Assembly (NCBI GenBank): GCA_020832235.1
Contig: JAFIEZ010000010.1
Span: 62,001 to 126,000, forward strand
Origin: Bacteroidota bacterium
Lineage (GTDB): Bacteria; Bacteroidota; Rhodothermia; Balneolales; HLUCCA01
Direction of reading: 5' to 3'
DNA length: 64,000 nt
This document shows positions 47,587 through 52,979 of the stretch, piece after piece (position 1 is the first letter of the stretch; every line of letters starts with the position of its first letter). The position numbers were made by a program, and so were the translations under genes. The notes below the pieces were generated by a model. The model had not been told where the DNA came from. It saw only the letters and a list, made by a program, of their open reading frames with translations, and searched no databases.

Positions 47587-48189
47587 TTACAAAGCTGTAC
47601 TATGCACTAAGCTCAGGAAGTTTCGCAGGAGGTGCTCTCCATTCGGGCCCGACTTCTCGGGATGAAACTGCGCCCCCATGAAATTCCCACGCGCCGCAAC
47701 GGCCGTAAATGGAAGCTGATAGTCACAGGAGGCCACCGTGTCAGCGGTGACAGGCGCGTAGTAGCTGTGCACGTAATACATTTGCTGTTCGGGTTGGAGT
47801 CCGGAGAGCAGGGGATGGTCTTTTATGGATGCAAACGCATTCCAGCCCAGATGCGGAACTTTGCCCAGCGTCTCGTCGAAGCGAAGTAGCCGACCCGGAA
47901 GCACACCCAGTCCGTTGGTGTTGCCTTCCTCCGAGCTTTCGTAGAGCAGCTGCATCCCAAGGCATATACCCAGAACGGGTTTGGTGGTCTGCTGTAGCCA
48001 TGCTACCAGGTCACGCTCAGCGAGTGCCTGCATCGCGGCCTCTGCATGACCAACCCCCGGAAATATGACGGCATCGGCCTGATCGAGTACGTTTTTATCG
48101 TAGGTGACCTGAAACGTAGCCCCAATACGCAGCAGCGCGTTGGAGACCGACATCAGGTTTCCGGCTTTGTAGTCAATTATGGCAATCAT
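47587..48189 (-). CDS. hisH: Imidazole glycerol-phosphate synthase, glutaminase subunit HisH
   Basis: Class I glutamine amidotransferase that feeds ammonia to HisF. 200 residues: DYKAGNLMSV start, FPGVGHAEAAM oxyanion region, nucleophile Cys in GICLGMQLLYESS, HLGWN motif, and the His-Glu pair GAQFHPEKSGPNG. The partner synthase HisF is not in the window, so it must be encoded elsewhere. Gap of 170 bases from hisB. Confidence 0.96.
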   Translation of the reverse strand: MIAIIDYKAGNLMSVSNALLRIGATFQVTYDKNVLDQADAVIFPGVGHAEAAMQALAERDLVAWLQQTTKPVLGICLGMQLLYESSEEGNTNGLGVLPGRLLRFDETLGKVPHLGWNAFASIKDHPLLSGLQPEQQMYYVHSYYAPVTADTVASCDYQLPFTAVAARGNFMGAQFHPEKSGPNGEHLLRNFLSLVHSTAL

Positions 48190-48359
48190 GTGCTGGATGT
48201 AGATTTGGTTAATATCATTGGCGGCTCGGACTCTGCAATAATCGTATATACTTGCCGATGAATCGGTATGCTAAAGCAGATGTGAGTATTTACGATACAG
48301 GTGTCACTGTTTAGGCCATTTGACGTGATCTGATTCTGCTCGATTTACACAGCAACGCA

Positions 48360-49253
48360 TCAAAGTGCTCCTTTGCTACTGGGAATTCCGTTCGGATCTT
48401 TCGGATTCCCGGCTACGGCTTGTTTGAGCGTACGCGCGAATCCTTTAAAGCAGGCCTCGATATTATGATGGTCGTTCTCGCCTTCGAATTGAATGTTGAG
48501 CGTGGCCTTGAGTCCCATAGCGAGGGAATAAAAGAAGTGTTTGGTCATTTCGGTGGGGAAATCGCCTACTTTTTCACGGGTGAAATTCCCTTCGAATACC
48601 AGATACGGTCTGCCGGAAAGGTCCAGCGCTACGGTGGCGCGGGCCTCATCCATCGGCAATACAAATCCGTACCGCTCAATGCCGCGTTTGTCGCCGAGGG
48701 CTTCAAGCAGGGTCTCGCCCAAAGTGATGCCCACATCTTCAATGGTGTGATGTTCGTCGATGTGGAGGTCGCCTTTGCAGTACACTTCCATATCTATAAA
48801 ACCATGACGGGCAATCTGCTCGAGCATGTGATCGAAAAAGGGGATGCCGGTTTCGATGGTATTTTTGCCCGATCCGTCTAGGTCGACCTTCACAAAAATA
48901 TCGGTTTCGTTGGTTTTGCGACGTTTTTCGGCGACCCGGCGCTGATCCAGCAGGTACAGCTGCATACCCATCCAATCGGGACTGCTAAACGGAAACTCCC
49001 CGTCGAAATCGGCTATGACCAGCTCACGGTGCTGTGCGTCTACGATGACATCGGCTCCGGCTGTGCCGAAATCCGCCAATTCAATGCCTTCCTGACGAAG
49101 CAGGGCCAGTTCGTCGGCTTCGAGTGTGGCCGCATCGGTCCCGATACGGTGTTCTTTGCTGGTGAGGGTGAAGAGAGCCCGCAGGGTGCCGGGACGAAAA
49201 GTTAACGTGTCGTCGTCGCCGCGCAGGGCCGGAGGCGTTATCCAGATATTCAT
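48360..49253 (-). CDS. hisB: Imidazoleglycerol-phosphate dehydratase HisB with a degenerate N-terminal extension
   Basis: 297 residues. Residues about 110-297 are a complete [33 protein letters not shown], metal site [10 protein letters not shown] (166-175), DISGRP-like [11 protein letters not shown], second metal site [14 protein letters not shown], and the C-terminal PSSKGAL. Residues 1-109 align by eye with the histidinol-phosphatase half of bifunctional HisB ([13 protein letters not shown] against the E. coli LAFEPGVIPELL region). They are some 55 residues shorter and lack the catalytic DxDGT motif and the zinc cysteines. So the phosphatase half seems dead or changed. Overlaps hisC by 4 bases. 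Confidence 0.93.
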
Positions 49254-50302
49254 GATAGTTTTTCGGTTAACATGGTGAGCATGGCGTCGTTTTCTTCGGC
49301 CGTGCCAATCGTAATGCGGATGGTGCTGTCGCAGTGAATCTGGTCGCCGCGATAACGGATGACCACGCCGGCGTCGGCCATTTCTTTGTATATACGCAGG
49401 GCATCGGGCACTTCAATCAGCAGGAAGTTGGCGTCGGAGGGGTGAATCACACCAACAGCAGGAATCTCGCGGAGTTTTTCGGCTACTCGTACGCGCTCGG
49501 CGTTGAGTGTGGCCACATGGCGTTGCATTTCGTCGATGTGGTCCATGGCTTTGAGTGCCACCTCAGTAGTGAGCTTATTGATATTGTAAGGCGCCTTCAC
49601 ACGCATCATATAGTCGATGATTTCGGCGGATGCAAGGGCGAGACCCAGCCGGATTCCCGCCAGTCCGAACGATTTCGACAAGGTTTGCAGCACAATCAGG
49701 TTTTCGAAAGCATCCAGTTCTGAGGCAAAACTGGCTTCGTCACTGAAATCGATATAGGCTTCATCCACAACCACAATCCCGTTGAAATCCAGCAGCATGC
49801 GGCGGATGTCCTGCCGGTGCAGCACGTTTCCGGTCGGATTGTTCGGTGAGCACAGGAAAATCACTTTCGTGGTGGGACGAACCGCGGCCAGGATGTCATC
49901 CACCCTCAGCTGAAAATCACGACTCAATGGCACTGCGTGTACATCTACGTCGTTGATGGCGGCGCTCACTTTGTACATACCATAGGTTGGAGGGGTGATG
50001 AGGATGCTGTCTTCGCCGGGTCGACAAAAAATGCGGAGCACCAGATCGATAGCCTCGTCGCTTCCCACCCCGCAGAACACGTTCTCGGGTTGAATCCCGC
50101 GAAATGCGGCATAACGCGCGCGGAAAGCCTCCTGATGCGGATCAGGATAGCGGTTGAGTTCGCGTGGATCGGCGGGTACCGAGCCGATGGCGTTCTCGTT
50201 GGCATCCAAAAGAATGCCCTGATCGTAGTCGTCGCGTGCGCACCGGTAGGGGGTGAGCAGTCGGATGTTGGTTCGAACCAGGCTGTGTACGTCGAATTTC
50301 AA
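49250..50302 (-). CDS. hisC: Histidinol-phosphate aminotransferase HisC
   Basis: PLP-dependent fold-type I aminotransferase. 350 residues: LDANENAIG substrate region, [23 protein letters not shown], and the PLP lysine in [17 protein letters not shown]-terminal Arg in [12 protein letters not shown] that binds the substrate phosphate/carboxylate. Lies 123 bases after hisD and overlaps hisB by 4 bases. Confidence 0.97.
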
Positions 50303-50425
50303 GGGAGTGCGCGTTGGTGGTTAATAATTAGTGTGGTGTATGTGTAGTTGAGCGTCGGCGGGTGGTTTGTTTTTGGCAGCGGCTGGTTTGGCCTAAGCTC
50401 TATTTCCGCCTAAACCCGGAATCTT

Positions 50426-51721
50426 TCATGAGGATTTCAAAGCTTTGAGTCGGATACTCACGGCACGTTCGTGCGCGGCAAGTCCTTCGGTTCGGGCCAT
50501 AATCTCTACGGCAGGACCAACATTTCGTAGTCCGTCGGGTGTCAGAGTCTGCACCGTCATTTGACGCAGGTACGAGTCAATCGAAACGCCGCTGTACATG
50601 CGGGCATAGCCGTATGTGGGCAGGGTGTGATTGGTTCCTGATGCATAATCGCCCACCGACTCGGGGGTCCATGGTCCGACGAATACGCTTCCGGCAGTCT
50701 GAATGTGTGCAACCAGATCGGTGGCATCAGTGGTGTTGATGATCAGGTGTTCAGGCGCGTAAGCATTGGTAAAATCCAGTGCTTCCTGCCTGCTGGCGGT
50801 ATGCAGAATATAGCTGTTATCCAATGCTTTCGCTGCAATGTCGCCACGGGGCAGGGCTTTGCATTGGGCGGTCAGTTCGGCCTGCAATGCATCGGTATTA
50901 AAGCCCGGCAGCGTGACCAGTACCACCTGGGAGTCGACTCCGTGCTCGGCCTGGGACAACAAGTCCGCAGCCACAAAGGCGGGATTTGCCTGTTCGTCGG
51001 CAATCACGAGAACCTCCGACGGACCGGCAGGCATGTCGATGCTAATCATCGCTTCGCTGTTTTGAAGCAGCATTTTGGCAGCGGTAACATACTGATTGCC
51101 CGGACCCAGAATTTTGTCCACTTTGGGTACGGTCTGTGTTCCATATGCCAGCGCTGCAACAGCTTGTGCGCCTCCGGCAAGTAATACCTGTTTAACGCCG
51201 CACAGCGCGGCAGTAAACTCTACTTCCGGAGCGAGGCTTCCGTCAGCACGCGGAGGCGTAGCAATGATAACCTGTTCGCATCCGGCAAGATGGGCTGGAA
51301 TCGCCAGCATCAGTACAGACGAGGGGAGAACCGCCGTGCCGCCCGGAACGTAGAGTCCAACCCGTGGAATAGCCCGTGGATACCGGCTGCACACCACACC
51401 AGGCATGGTTTCAACGGTGACTTCCTGAGGCCGTTGGGCCCGGTGGAACATATAGATATTGTTGAAGGCCGTCTCGAAGGCATCGCGCACCTCCTGCGAA
51501 AGGGGGATGTCGTCTTTGTCGCGAACGGTAAGCATGGGCGTGTCGAGGGTGGCTTTGTCAAACCTGGAGGTGAGCTCAAGCAACGCCCGGTCTCCATTAT
51601 TCCGCACCTGATTGATAATATCCTGTACGGTGCCGAACAAAGCCGTATAGTCGATGCGAGGACGCAATAATAATGTATGGCGTTCCTCCTGCGAAAGTTG
51701 ATTGAAGTCGAATACCCGCAT
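50426..51721 (-). CDS. hisD: Histidinol dehydrogenase HisD
   Basis: NAD- and zinc-dependent oxidation of histidinol to histidine, the last two steps. 431 residues. VPGGTAVLPSSVLMLAIPA, DMPAGPSEVLVIADE and LSQAEHGVDSQVVLVT (zinc/catalytic motif) are visible, with NAYAPEHL and GDYASGTNHTLPT near the C-terminus. Begins 2 bases after the hisG stop. Confidence 0.97.
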   Translation of the reverse strand: MRVFDFNQLSQEERHTLLLRPRIDYTALFGTVQDIINQVRNNGDRALLELTSRFDKATLDTPMLTVRDKDDIPLSQEVRDAFETAFNNIYMFHRAQRPQEVTVETMPGVVCSRYPRAIPRVGLYVPGGTAVLPSSVLMLAIPAHLAGCEQVIIATPPRADGSLAPEVEFTAALCGVKQVLLAGGAQAVAALAYGTQTVPKVDKILGPGNQYVTAAKMLLQNSEAMISIDMPAGPSEVLVIADEQANPAFVAADLLSQAEHGVDSQVVLVTLPGFNTDALQAELTAQCKALPRGDIAAKALDNSYILHTASRQEALDFTNAYAPEHLIINTTDATDLVAHIQTAGSVFVGPWTPESVGDYASGTNHTLPTYGYARMYSGVSIDSYLRQMTVQTLTPDGLRNVGPAVEIMARTEGLAAHERAVSIRLKALKSS

Positions 51722-51723
51722 GG

Positions 51724-52593
51724 TTACATGATCATGTTTTCAATGGGAAGAATCACGATTCCGGTCGCTCCCGCGGCCTTCAGCTTCTCGGTGATGGTCC
51801 AAAATTCGTTGATGGGTACAACGGAGTGGATGGCCACCATGTCGGGATCGGCAAGAGGGAGCACGGTCGGACTTTTCAGCGCAGAGATAATACGCAGAAT
51901 TTCATCCTGAGAGGCTTTAGGAGCGTTCATCATGATATAACGAGAGCGCTGAGCCAGCTGACATCCGCCGATTCTCAGCAGAAACTTGTCAATAAGCTCC
52001 TGTTTTTCGGCAGAGATGGGTTTGTTTGTCTGAATGAGCTGACTCTCGGAGGTGAAAATGACATCCGTTTCTACCAGTCCATTTTGTCGGAGGGTACCAC
52101 CGGTTGATACCAGGTCGCACACGGCATCGGCTACACCTAATCGAGGCGCGATTTCCACCGCACCCGAAATTTCCACTGTTTTTACATCCATCCCGTTTTC
52201 ACGGAAGTATTTTTGTGTGAGGAAGGGATAACTGGTGGCGATGCGTTTTCCGTTAAGGTCTTTAGCGCTTTTGTAGGTACCATTTTTAGGTACGGCTACG
52301 GAAAGACGGCACTTCCCGAATCCCAGATTACGGATAACCGTTACATCGGCGTTTTTCTCGGCCGTGACATTGGCGCCCACGAAACCGATATCACAAACCC
52401 CATCCTGAACGTACTCAGGAATATCGTCGTCTCGAATGAGCAGCAGTTCAATATCGAAGTTTTGTATGGGCACAATCATGTGACCTTTGTAGCTGTCGAA
52501 TTTCATGCCTGCCTGTTTGAGCAGACCAATACTTTCTTCGGTCAGTCGACCGCTTTTCTGAAGGGCAATACGTAATGTTGAGCTAGGTTCCAC
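51724..52593 (-). CDS. hisG: ATP phosphoribosyltransferase HisG, long form
   Basis: First, committed step of histidine synthesis. 289 residues, i.e. the long HisG form with a C-terminal ACT-like domain (about 215-289) that binds histidine for feedback; no HisZ needed. Motifs: RIALQKSGRLTEESIGLL start, DIGFVGANV, RIATSYPFLTQKYF, and the PRPP loop DLVSTGGTLRQNGL. First structural gene behind the histidine leader peptide and attenuator. Confidence 0.97.
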   Translation of the reverse strand: MEPSSTLRIALQKSGRLTEESIGLLKQAGMKFDSYKGHMIVPIQNFDIELLLIRDDDIPEYVQDGVCDIGFVGANVTAEKNADVTVIRNLGFGKCRLSVAVPKNGTYKSAKDLNGKRIATSYPFLTQKYFRENGMDVKTVEISGAVEIAPRLGVADAVCDLVSTGGTLRQNGLVETDVIFTSESQLIQTNKPISAEKQELIDKFLLRIGGCQLAQRSRYIMMNAPKASQDEILRIISALKSPTVLPLADPDMVAIHSVVPINEFWTITEKLKAAGATGIVILPIENMIM

Positions 52594-52617: not shown

Positions 52618-52728
52618 AAGAAAAAGATTTCCCCACGAAGGGAGATTGTCGAAAGGGGGCCGTATCAGATGGGGAGAACGCAAAATTATGCGTGAAGGTG
52701 CCCGGCAAATTGATGCACCGATACGGCC
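52618..52728 (-). promoter_or_regulatory. Attenuator region of the his operon
   Basis: On the minus strand GGCCGTATC (complement of 52720-52728, inside the leader peptide) can pair with GATACGGCC (complement of 52658-52666), a 9-bp stem that would act as antiterminator. TCCCCA (complement of 52670-52675) can pair with TGGGGA (complement of 52630-52635), followed by AAATCTTTTTCTT, a terminator-like end. The alternating pairings and the His-rich leader fit ribosome-mediated attenuation. The terminator stem is only 6 bp with a large loop, so the exact fold is uncertain. Confidence 0.65.
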
Positions 52729-52784
52729 ACGATATGATGTCCGTGATGTCGATGCACATGAAGATGAGTGATGTTTGAAATCAT
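52686..52784 (-). CDS. hisL: Histidine operon leader peptide (HisL-like), 32 residues
   Basis: ATG at 52784-52782 to TAA at 52688-52686: 32 codons of which ten are histidine (residues 7, 9, 11, 13, 14, 16, 17, 24, 29, 31). It lies 92 bases before hisG on the same strand. Such a His count by chance is very unlikely. When charged histidine tRNA is scarce, ribosomes would stall within it and let the antiterminator form. The His codons are spread rather than in one run as in E. coli HisL. Confidence 0.85.
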   Translation of the reverse strand: MISNITHLHVHRHHGHHIVAVSVHQFAGHLHA

Positions 52785-52979
52785 GTTCTAAATATAAAGA
52801 AAAATGAACGTGATGGCAGAGCGATTTTTTAAATAGCGAATTCTAGTTGCAATATTTTATTGAAAGCGCTTTTCTGTTGATATGAGTTCGCTTATATTGA
52901 TTTTAAACCTATTTAATCTTGGTGCGAAGCGGTTGCGGCTTCCCCGCAGCTACTTCCCCAAAAAGGCTGGAGGTAGATT
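52785..52979. other. Divergent promoter region of the his operon and the DASS transporter
   Basis: About 195 AT-rich bases between the leader peptide (minus) and the transporter gene (plus). Both promoters must lie here, but I cannot assign boxes confidently. No other gene seen. Confidence 0.5.

Follow-up and report, generated by a model that had tools for sequence, protein, structure and literature searches.

The leader frame and the his operon

The window (the whole stretch of DNA analysed, 64,000 nt) carries a his operon on its reverse strand, in the order hisG-D-C-B-H (the hisD-to-hisH block spans 47587..51721), with a small His-rich frame ahead of it. Among named relatives, the closest are the MAG “Bacteroidetes bacterium HLUCCA01,” whose HisG is 95% identical to that of the window, and Balneolales MAGs, that is, Balneolota in the NCBI taxonomy. 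In the direction of transcription, the features are:

52789..52796 (-): putative -7 promoter element TATATTTA, of the Bacteroidota type TAnnTTTG, 4 nt from the leader ATG
52784-52686 (-): his leader peptide frame, 32 codons, 10 of them His, ATG start, TAA stop
51724..52593 (-): hisG, ATP phosphoribosyltransferase, GTG start, first gene of the operon
50426-51721 (-): hisD, second gene of the operon
49250-50302 (-): aminotransferase taken as hisC
48360-49253 (-): hisB
47587-48189 (-): glutamine amidotransferase taken as hisH

The leader peptide reads MISNITHLHVHRHHGHHIVAVSVHQFAGHLHA*, and the GTG of hisG lies 92 nt downstream of the end of its frame. The first-pass annotation had described ten His in 32 codons before hisG, and its coordinates and His count were right. 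Of the window's 725 small frames, this one has the highest His content; 20 dinucleotide shuffles of the window yielded 22,248 small frames, none of which had at least 8 His together with at least 25% His. The peptide matched no family among the Pfam and NCBIfam models. The Rfam model for His_leader (RF00514), which detected the E. coli control, had no match in the genome or the window, and the leader is thus outside that family as modelled. The sole Rfam match in the window at gathering thresholds is a SAM riboswitch (RF00162; 29003-29128, minus strand, 76.6 bits); sub-threshold matches were taken as chance. Such a short gene is likely to be missed by gene finders, and the leader offers a simple annotation rule.

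The promoter element is not peculiar to this locus. A TAnnTT element is found no more than 14 nt from the start codon in 72 of 100 leaders, as against 7% of control start codons, and mostly 4-5 nt before it, a spacing that suggests that the leader mRNA is probably leaderless or nearly so.

Ribosome-mediated attenuation by amino acids is textbook knowledge for the Enterobacteria; to our knowledge, it is little documented for the Bacteroidota group. The enterobacterial hisL resembles the window's leader in being His-rich, in lying directly before the first his gene, and in allowing alternative pairings between leader and post-leader sequence. It differs in having a single run of seven His codons, where those of the window are dispersed; the window's leader, besides falling outside RF00514, has a probably near-leaderless mRNA and no convincing intrinsic terminator.

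Distribution among relatives

Both sister species (loci L031 and L032, identical to L002 and L003) have His-rich leaders of the same frame length, with 66-68% nucleotide identity to that of the window, so that the conservation upstream of related hisG genes proposed in the first-pass annotation as a check on its reading does hold. In the window's family, a His-rich frame ending approximately 65-170 nt before hisG is found in genera g1 and g2. In other families of the same order, one is found at this position in almost all loci of the Balneolaceae (f4), in most f5 loci, in the one genome sampled from f2, and in one f3 genome (L014/L038); none was seen in the remaining f3 genomes or in genus g3 of the window's family. 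Four other f3 loci have kept a Trp leader, so the loss in f3 seems to be specific to his. At f3 loci L006-L008, L012, L013, and L015, which have no his leader, an apparent lepA adjoins hisG upstream.

A survey of small frames in 400 kb of relatives (19 stretches of 20 kb from Balneolaceae and one from f3) found 17 of 6119 that satisfied a strict His criterion; all 17 are the his leader. A chance or otherwise unrelated His-rich peptide is therefore hardly a credible reading of the frame. Metal binding, for example, is a possible property of His-rich peptides, but the His codons of the leader are kept while other residues vary, and the frame always lies just 5′ of hisG and nowhere else in these 400 kb, so that this reading may be considered refuted to a practical degree.

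Shorter His leaders, such as MFINQLHHHHFHNCSQAMC and MKQITHIHHHHFLTNG, occur in many families of a phylum-wide sample. These were picked by their His content, and the weakest (3-4 His) are individually less certain; the terminators behind them provide independent support. At loci L130-L135 and L156-L215, short His leaders together with canonical terminators precede hisG in many families of Bacteroidota and Ignavibacteria, apparently a general feature of these groups that lies outside RF00514 coverage. On this survey, the his leader is of ancient origin in the Bacteroidota group and occurs widely there, and that of the window is real, functional-looking, and conserved. The his leaders of other Bacteroidota and Ignavibacteria, including the hisG element of Flavobacteriaceae (PMC9723704), share place and codon with those of Balneolales, and the two are probably of common origin.

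In 2010, the authors of a study that added a His leader in bacilli knew of demonstrated leader-peptide systems from no groups other than Proteobacteria and Actinobacteria (PMC2965389). A 2021 transcriptome of Flavobacterium psychrophilum gave clues for leader-peptide attenuation of amino-acid operons, and described a 5′ element at hisG that further Flavobacteriaceae genera share (PMC9723704). The suggestion in the first-pass annotation that the mechanism extends to the Bacteroidota group was not the first hint of this; its reading of the locus as a classical attenuator is supported in part. No report of a his leader in Balneolota was found in the literature searched, which is part of the whole.

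Pairing and terminators behind the leader

Inverted repeats within and behind the frame had also been claimed, and are present:

52720..52728 (-): segment 2, GGCCGTATC, within the leader, just past the main His cluster
52678..52693 (-): small hairpin ACGCA-TAATTT-TGCGT, whose loop holds the stop codon of the leader
52658..52666 (-): segment 3, GATACGGCC, the candidate antiterminator strand complementary to segment 2
52630..52675 (-): hairpin TCCCCAT...GTGGGGA, resembling a terminator but weak (-8.4 kcal/mol)
52620..52627 (-): U-rich tail TCTTTTTC, absent from the sister species

Segments 2 and 3 are an exact 9-nt complement (p = 0.009 against shuffles). L032 has a compensated version of this pairing at the same place, though weaker; L031 is different, with none there. 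The 2:3 pairing is thus clear in the window but, on the sequences compared, not firmly conserved within the genus. The stop-codon hairpin is kept in both sister species, and similar ones are found in L004 and some Balneolaceae. The TCCCCAT...GTGGGGA hairpin is followed by AATCTTTTTC, with AA separating the stem from the U-run. When a ribosome is modelled at the stop codon this hairpin appears in the predicted fold, and when it is modelled as stalled upstream the 2:3 fold dominates; a short version, TCCCT-TCGT-GGGGA, is predicted in the stalled fold as well. L032 has no counterpart of the hairpin, that of L031 has no U run, and no convincing one was found in either sister or in 44 Balneolaceae. 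Of the alternative stems with a U-rich end proposed earlier, the inverted repeats are present, but the claim that they end in an intrinsic terminator is weak, given the low stability of the stem, the interposed AA, and the lack of conservation.

Terminators were sought more widely by an energy scan of the post-leader region, counting hairpins at least as stable as -9 kcal/mol that precede a U-tract. They follow 34 of 35 his leaders elsewhere in the phylum (four f14 genomes having been set aside), but only 1 of 44 in Balneolaceae and 0 of 4 in the window's own family, for which there are four leader sequences. Allowing the end of the leader to serve as the 5′ arm changes these counts to 34/35, 8/44, and 1/4, respectively. 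The f5 loci fall in between, L037, L044, and L115 having clear terminators. Such scanning can recognize terminators in these genomes, since a separate, stringent scan found terminator-like sites at 16% of Balneolaceae gene ends, compared to 0.2% in shuffles.

The Trp leaders of the same order provide a comparison, as they also precede a biosynthetic gene, in the same genomes. Leaders of the TGGTGGTGG type recur in most Balneolales trpE loci (f1, f3, f4, and f5), and, unlike the his leaders there, all 20 examined have a canonical terminator, including that of the source genome (-15.9 kcal/mol). The latter, MLLITANTVNWWWPLAKRFA*, stands before trpE (G000:C10, 560454-561827, minus strand; locus L223). 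Leu/Ile/Val leaders at leuA and Phe leaders at pheA gave no consistent signal.

Pairing between the leader end and the post-leader region was compared with that obtained when post-leaders were swapped among species. The sequences are related and part of this relatedness is ignored, so the p-values are optimistic. In Balneolaceae, the leader end pairs better with its own post-leader (centered excess -1.82 kcal/mol, p = 0.0002; taken separately, p = 0.0018 in clade A and p = 0.13 in clade B), and the control set with canonical terminators also gives p = 0.0002. Pairs close to the stop codon include GAUGUGC/GCACGUC, AUGCGC/GCGCAU, UGGAUA/UAUCCA, and UGCUGCG/CGUAGCA. Sequence by sequence, the helix straddling the stop is modestly better than in shuffles (median p 0.28), and no consensus structure emerged when MAFFT alignments for the two large clades of Balneolaceae were folded with RNAalifold (0.0 and -0.22 kcal/mol), because loop lengths vary. 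Such species-specific pairing is as expected of an antiterminator-like interaction. The stem covariation that the first-pass annotation proposed to look for is found among Balneolaceae; within the genus, the 2:3 pairing is compensated in L032, while L031 follows a different scheme.

The post-leader region is also unusual in composition. In Balneolaceae it has a C fraction of 0.294 and a G fraction of 0.077; the difference, C minus G, amounts to 0.217, whereas control upstream regions have 0.037 (p = 1.8e-19; p = 7.7e-17 on 36 representatives) and the stretches after Trp leaders -0.009. The C excess of the window itself, 0.167 vs. 0.059 (sd 0.096), is within the control range. In folding models of the Balneolaceae, stalling at the His codons would lower access to post-leader C residues from 0.85 to 0.69, a predicted drop of 0.162 compared to 0.099 in shuffles (p = 0.016).

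Possible modes of termination

Conservation beyond the genus, the covarying pairing in Balneolaceae, and a position shared with the canonical his attenuators elsewhere in the phylum strongly support a role for the leader in sensing His, which is very probable. By the testable sequence criteria, a convincing terminator excepted, the locus looks like a his attenuator that varies in its termination half. In the proposed mechanism, RNA polymerase would initiate at the leader start codon or immediately ahead of it, and the His-rich frame would be translated by a ribosome. If charged His-tRNA were scarce, the ribosome would stall at the His codons; the leader's 3′ part would then be available for pairing past the stop codon, and transcription would proceed into hisG. 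If His were plentiful, the ribosome would reach the stop codon and cover this 3′ part, exposing the C-rich, G-poor stretch, and transcription would end before hisG. The leader would thus probably switch the operon on when histidine is short, although we infer this direction. In the window's family and in Balneolaceae the last step is likely non-intrinsic and may involve Rho acting on the exposed stretch. The chances that this is ribosome-mediated His attenuation of such a kind, with termination probably not intrinsic and perhaps Rho-dependent, appear about evenly balanced.

Rho binds C-rich, G-poor, unstructured RNA, and the genome encodes an intact Rho on C13 (574.5 bits, above the curated cut-off). 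A second Rho-like frame (G000:C2:14067-15356, minus strand; locus L217) scores 417 bits and has one in-frame TAG. The C-rich, G-poor stretch, the Rho gene, and the existence of leader-gated Rho sites elsewhere (speF/orf34) make Rho the leading candidate for the termination step, judging from composition and the absence of a terminator, although its involvement falls just short of an even chance. In Salmonella, mgtL is another Rho-linked leader peptide. There, as in speF/orf34, the position of the ribosome governs the formation of a hairpin just past the leader stop, as proposed here; the signal amino acid and the gene are different, and Rho has been shown by experiment in those systems, where here it is suggested by sequence. 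The speF leader has a CU-rich Rho site, with the leader peptide gating the adjacent hairpin (PMC6386406).

One alternative is a fully classical intrinsic attenuator, with 2:3 as antiterminator and TCCCCAT...GTGGGGA plus TCTTTTTC as terminator. The modelled folds of the window behave as this would require, and the same architecture is found with strong terminators in part of f5, in Ignavibacteria, and elsewhere in the phylum; but the weak stem, the AA before the U-run, the lack of a usable counterpart in either sister, and the formation of the short hairpin even in the stalled fold make it unlikely here, particularly as the Trp leader of the same genome has a proper terminator. Control might instead be translational, with the stalled ribosome acting not on transcription but on folding or re-initiation where hisG begins. 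The distance from leader stop to hisG is short (mostly 65-135 nt in Balneolales), and in Salmonella speF/orf34 the hairpin past the stop affects translation and mRNA stability (PMC6386406). The swap test, however, found no preference of the hisG start region for its own leader or post-leader (p = 0.85 and 0.997), of the kind that covarying pairing would produce, and the post-leader pairs less with its own hisG start than swapped partners do; we consider this quite improbable.

It is also conceivable, though very unlikely, that the hairpin straddling the stop codon is itself the terminator, its action being prevented when ribosomes stall at the final His codons. U-rich sequence follows its 3′ arm in some Balneolaceae (L095, L096, L079, and L093), and a U5 tract is close behind it in Balneola-like species. 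Its median energy in 44 Balneolaceae species is, however, just -2.9 kcal/mol, and stalls at early His codons would favor termination, the wrong direction for a biosynthetic operon.

To return to factor-dependent termination, the Balneolota his attenuator may have kept its sensing half, made up of a nearly leaderless His leader with switchable pairing at its stop codon, and exchanged the intrinsic terminator usual in its phylum for termination by a factor, probably Rho, whereas the trp attenuator in the same cells stayed intrinsic; this broader proposal is tentative, and we lean slightly against assuming it. Within single genomes, the his leader lacks a terminator that the trp leader has, which offers a natural paired test of how an attenuator can keep its sensing half and exchange its termination half. 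The f14 loci (L168-L171) possibly represent another variant: their His leaders have no intrinsic terminator in the post-leader region, and their last His codons, together with sequence flanking the stop codon, form a strong hairpin.
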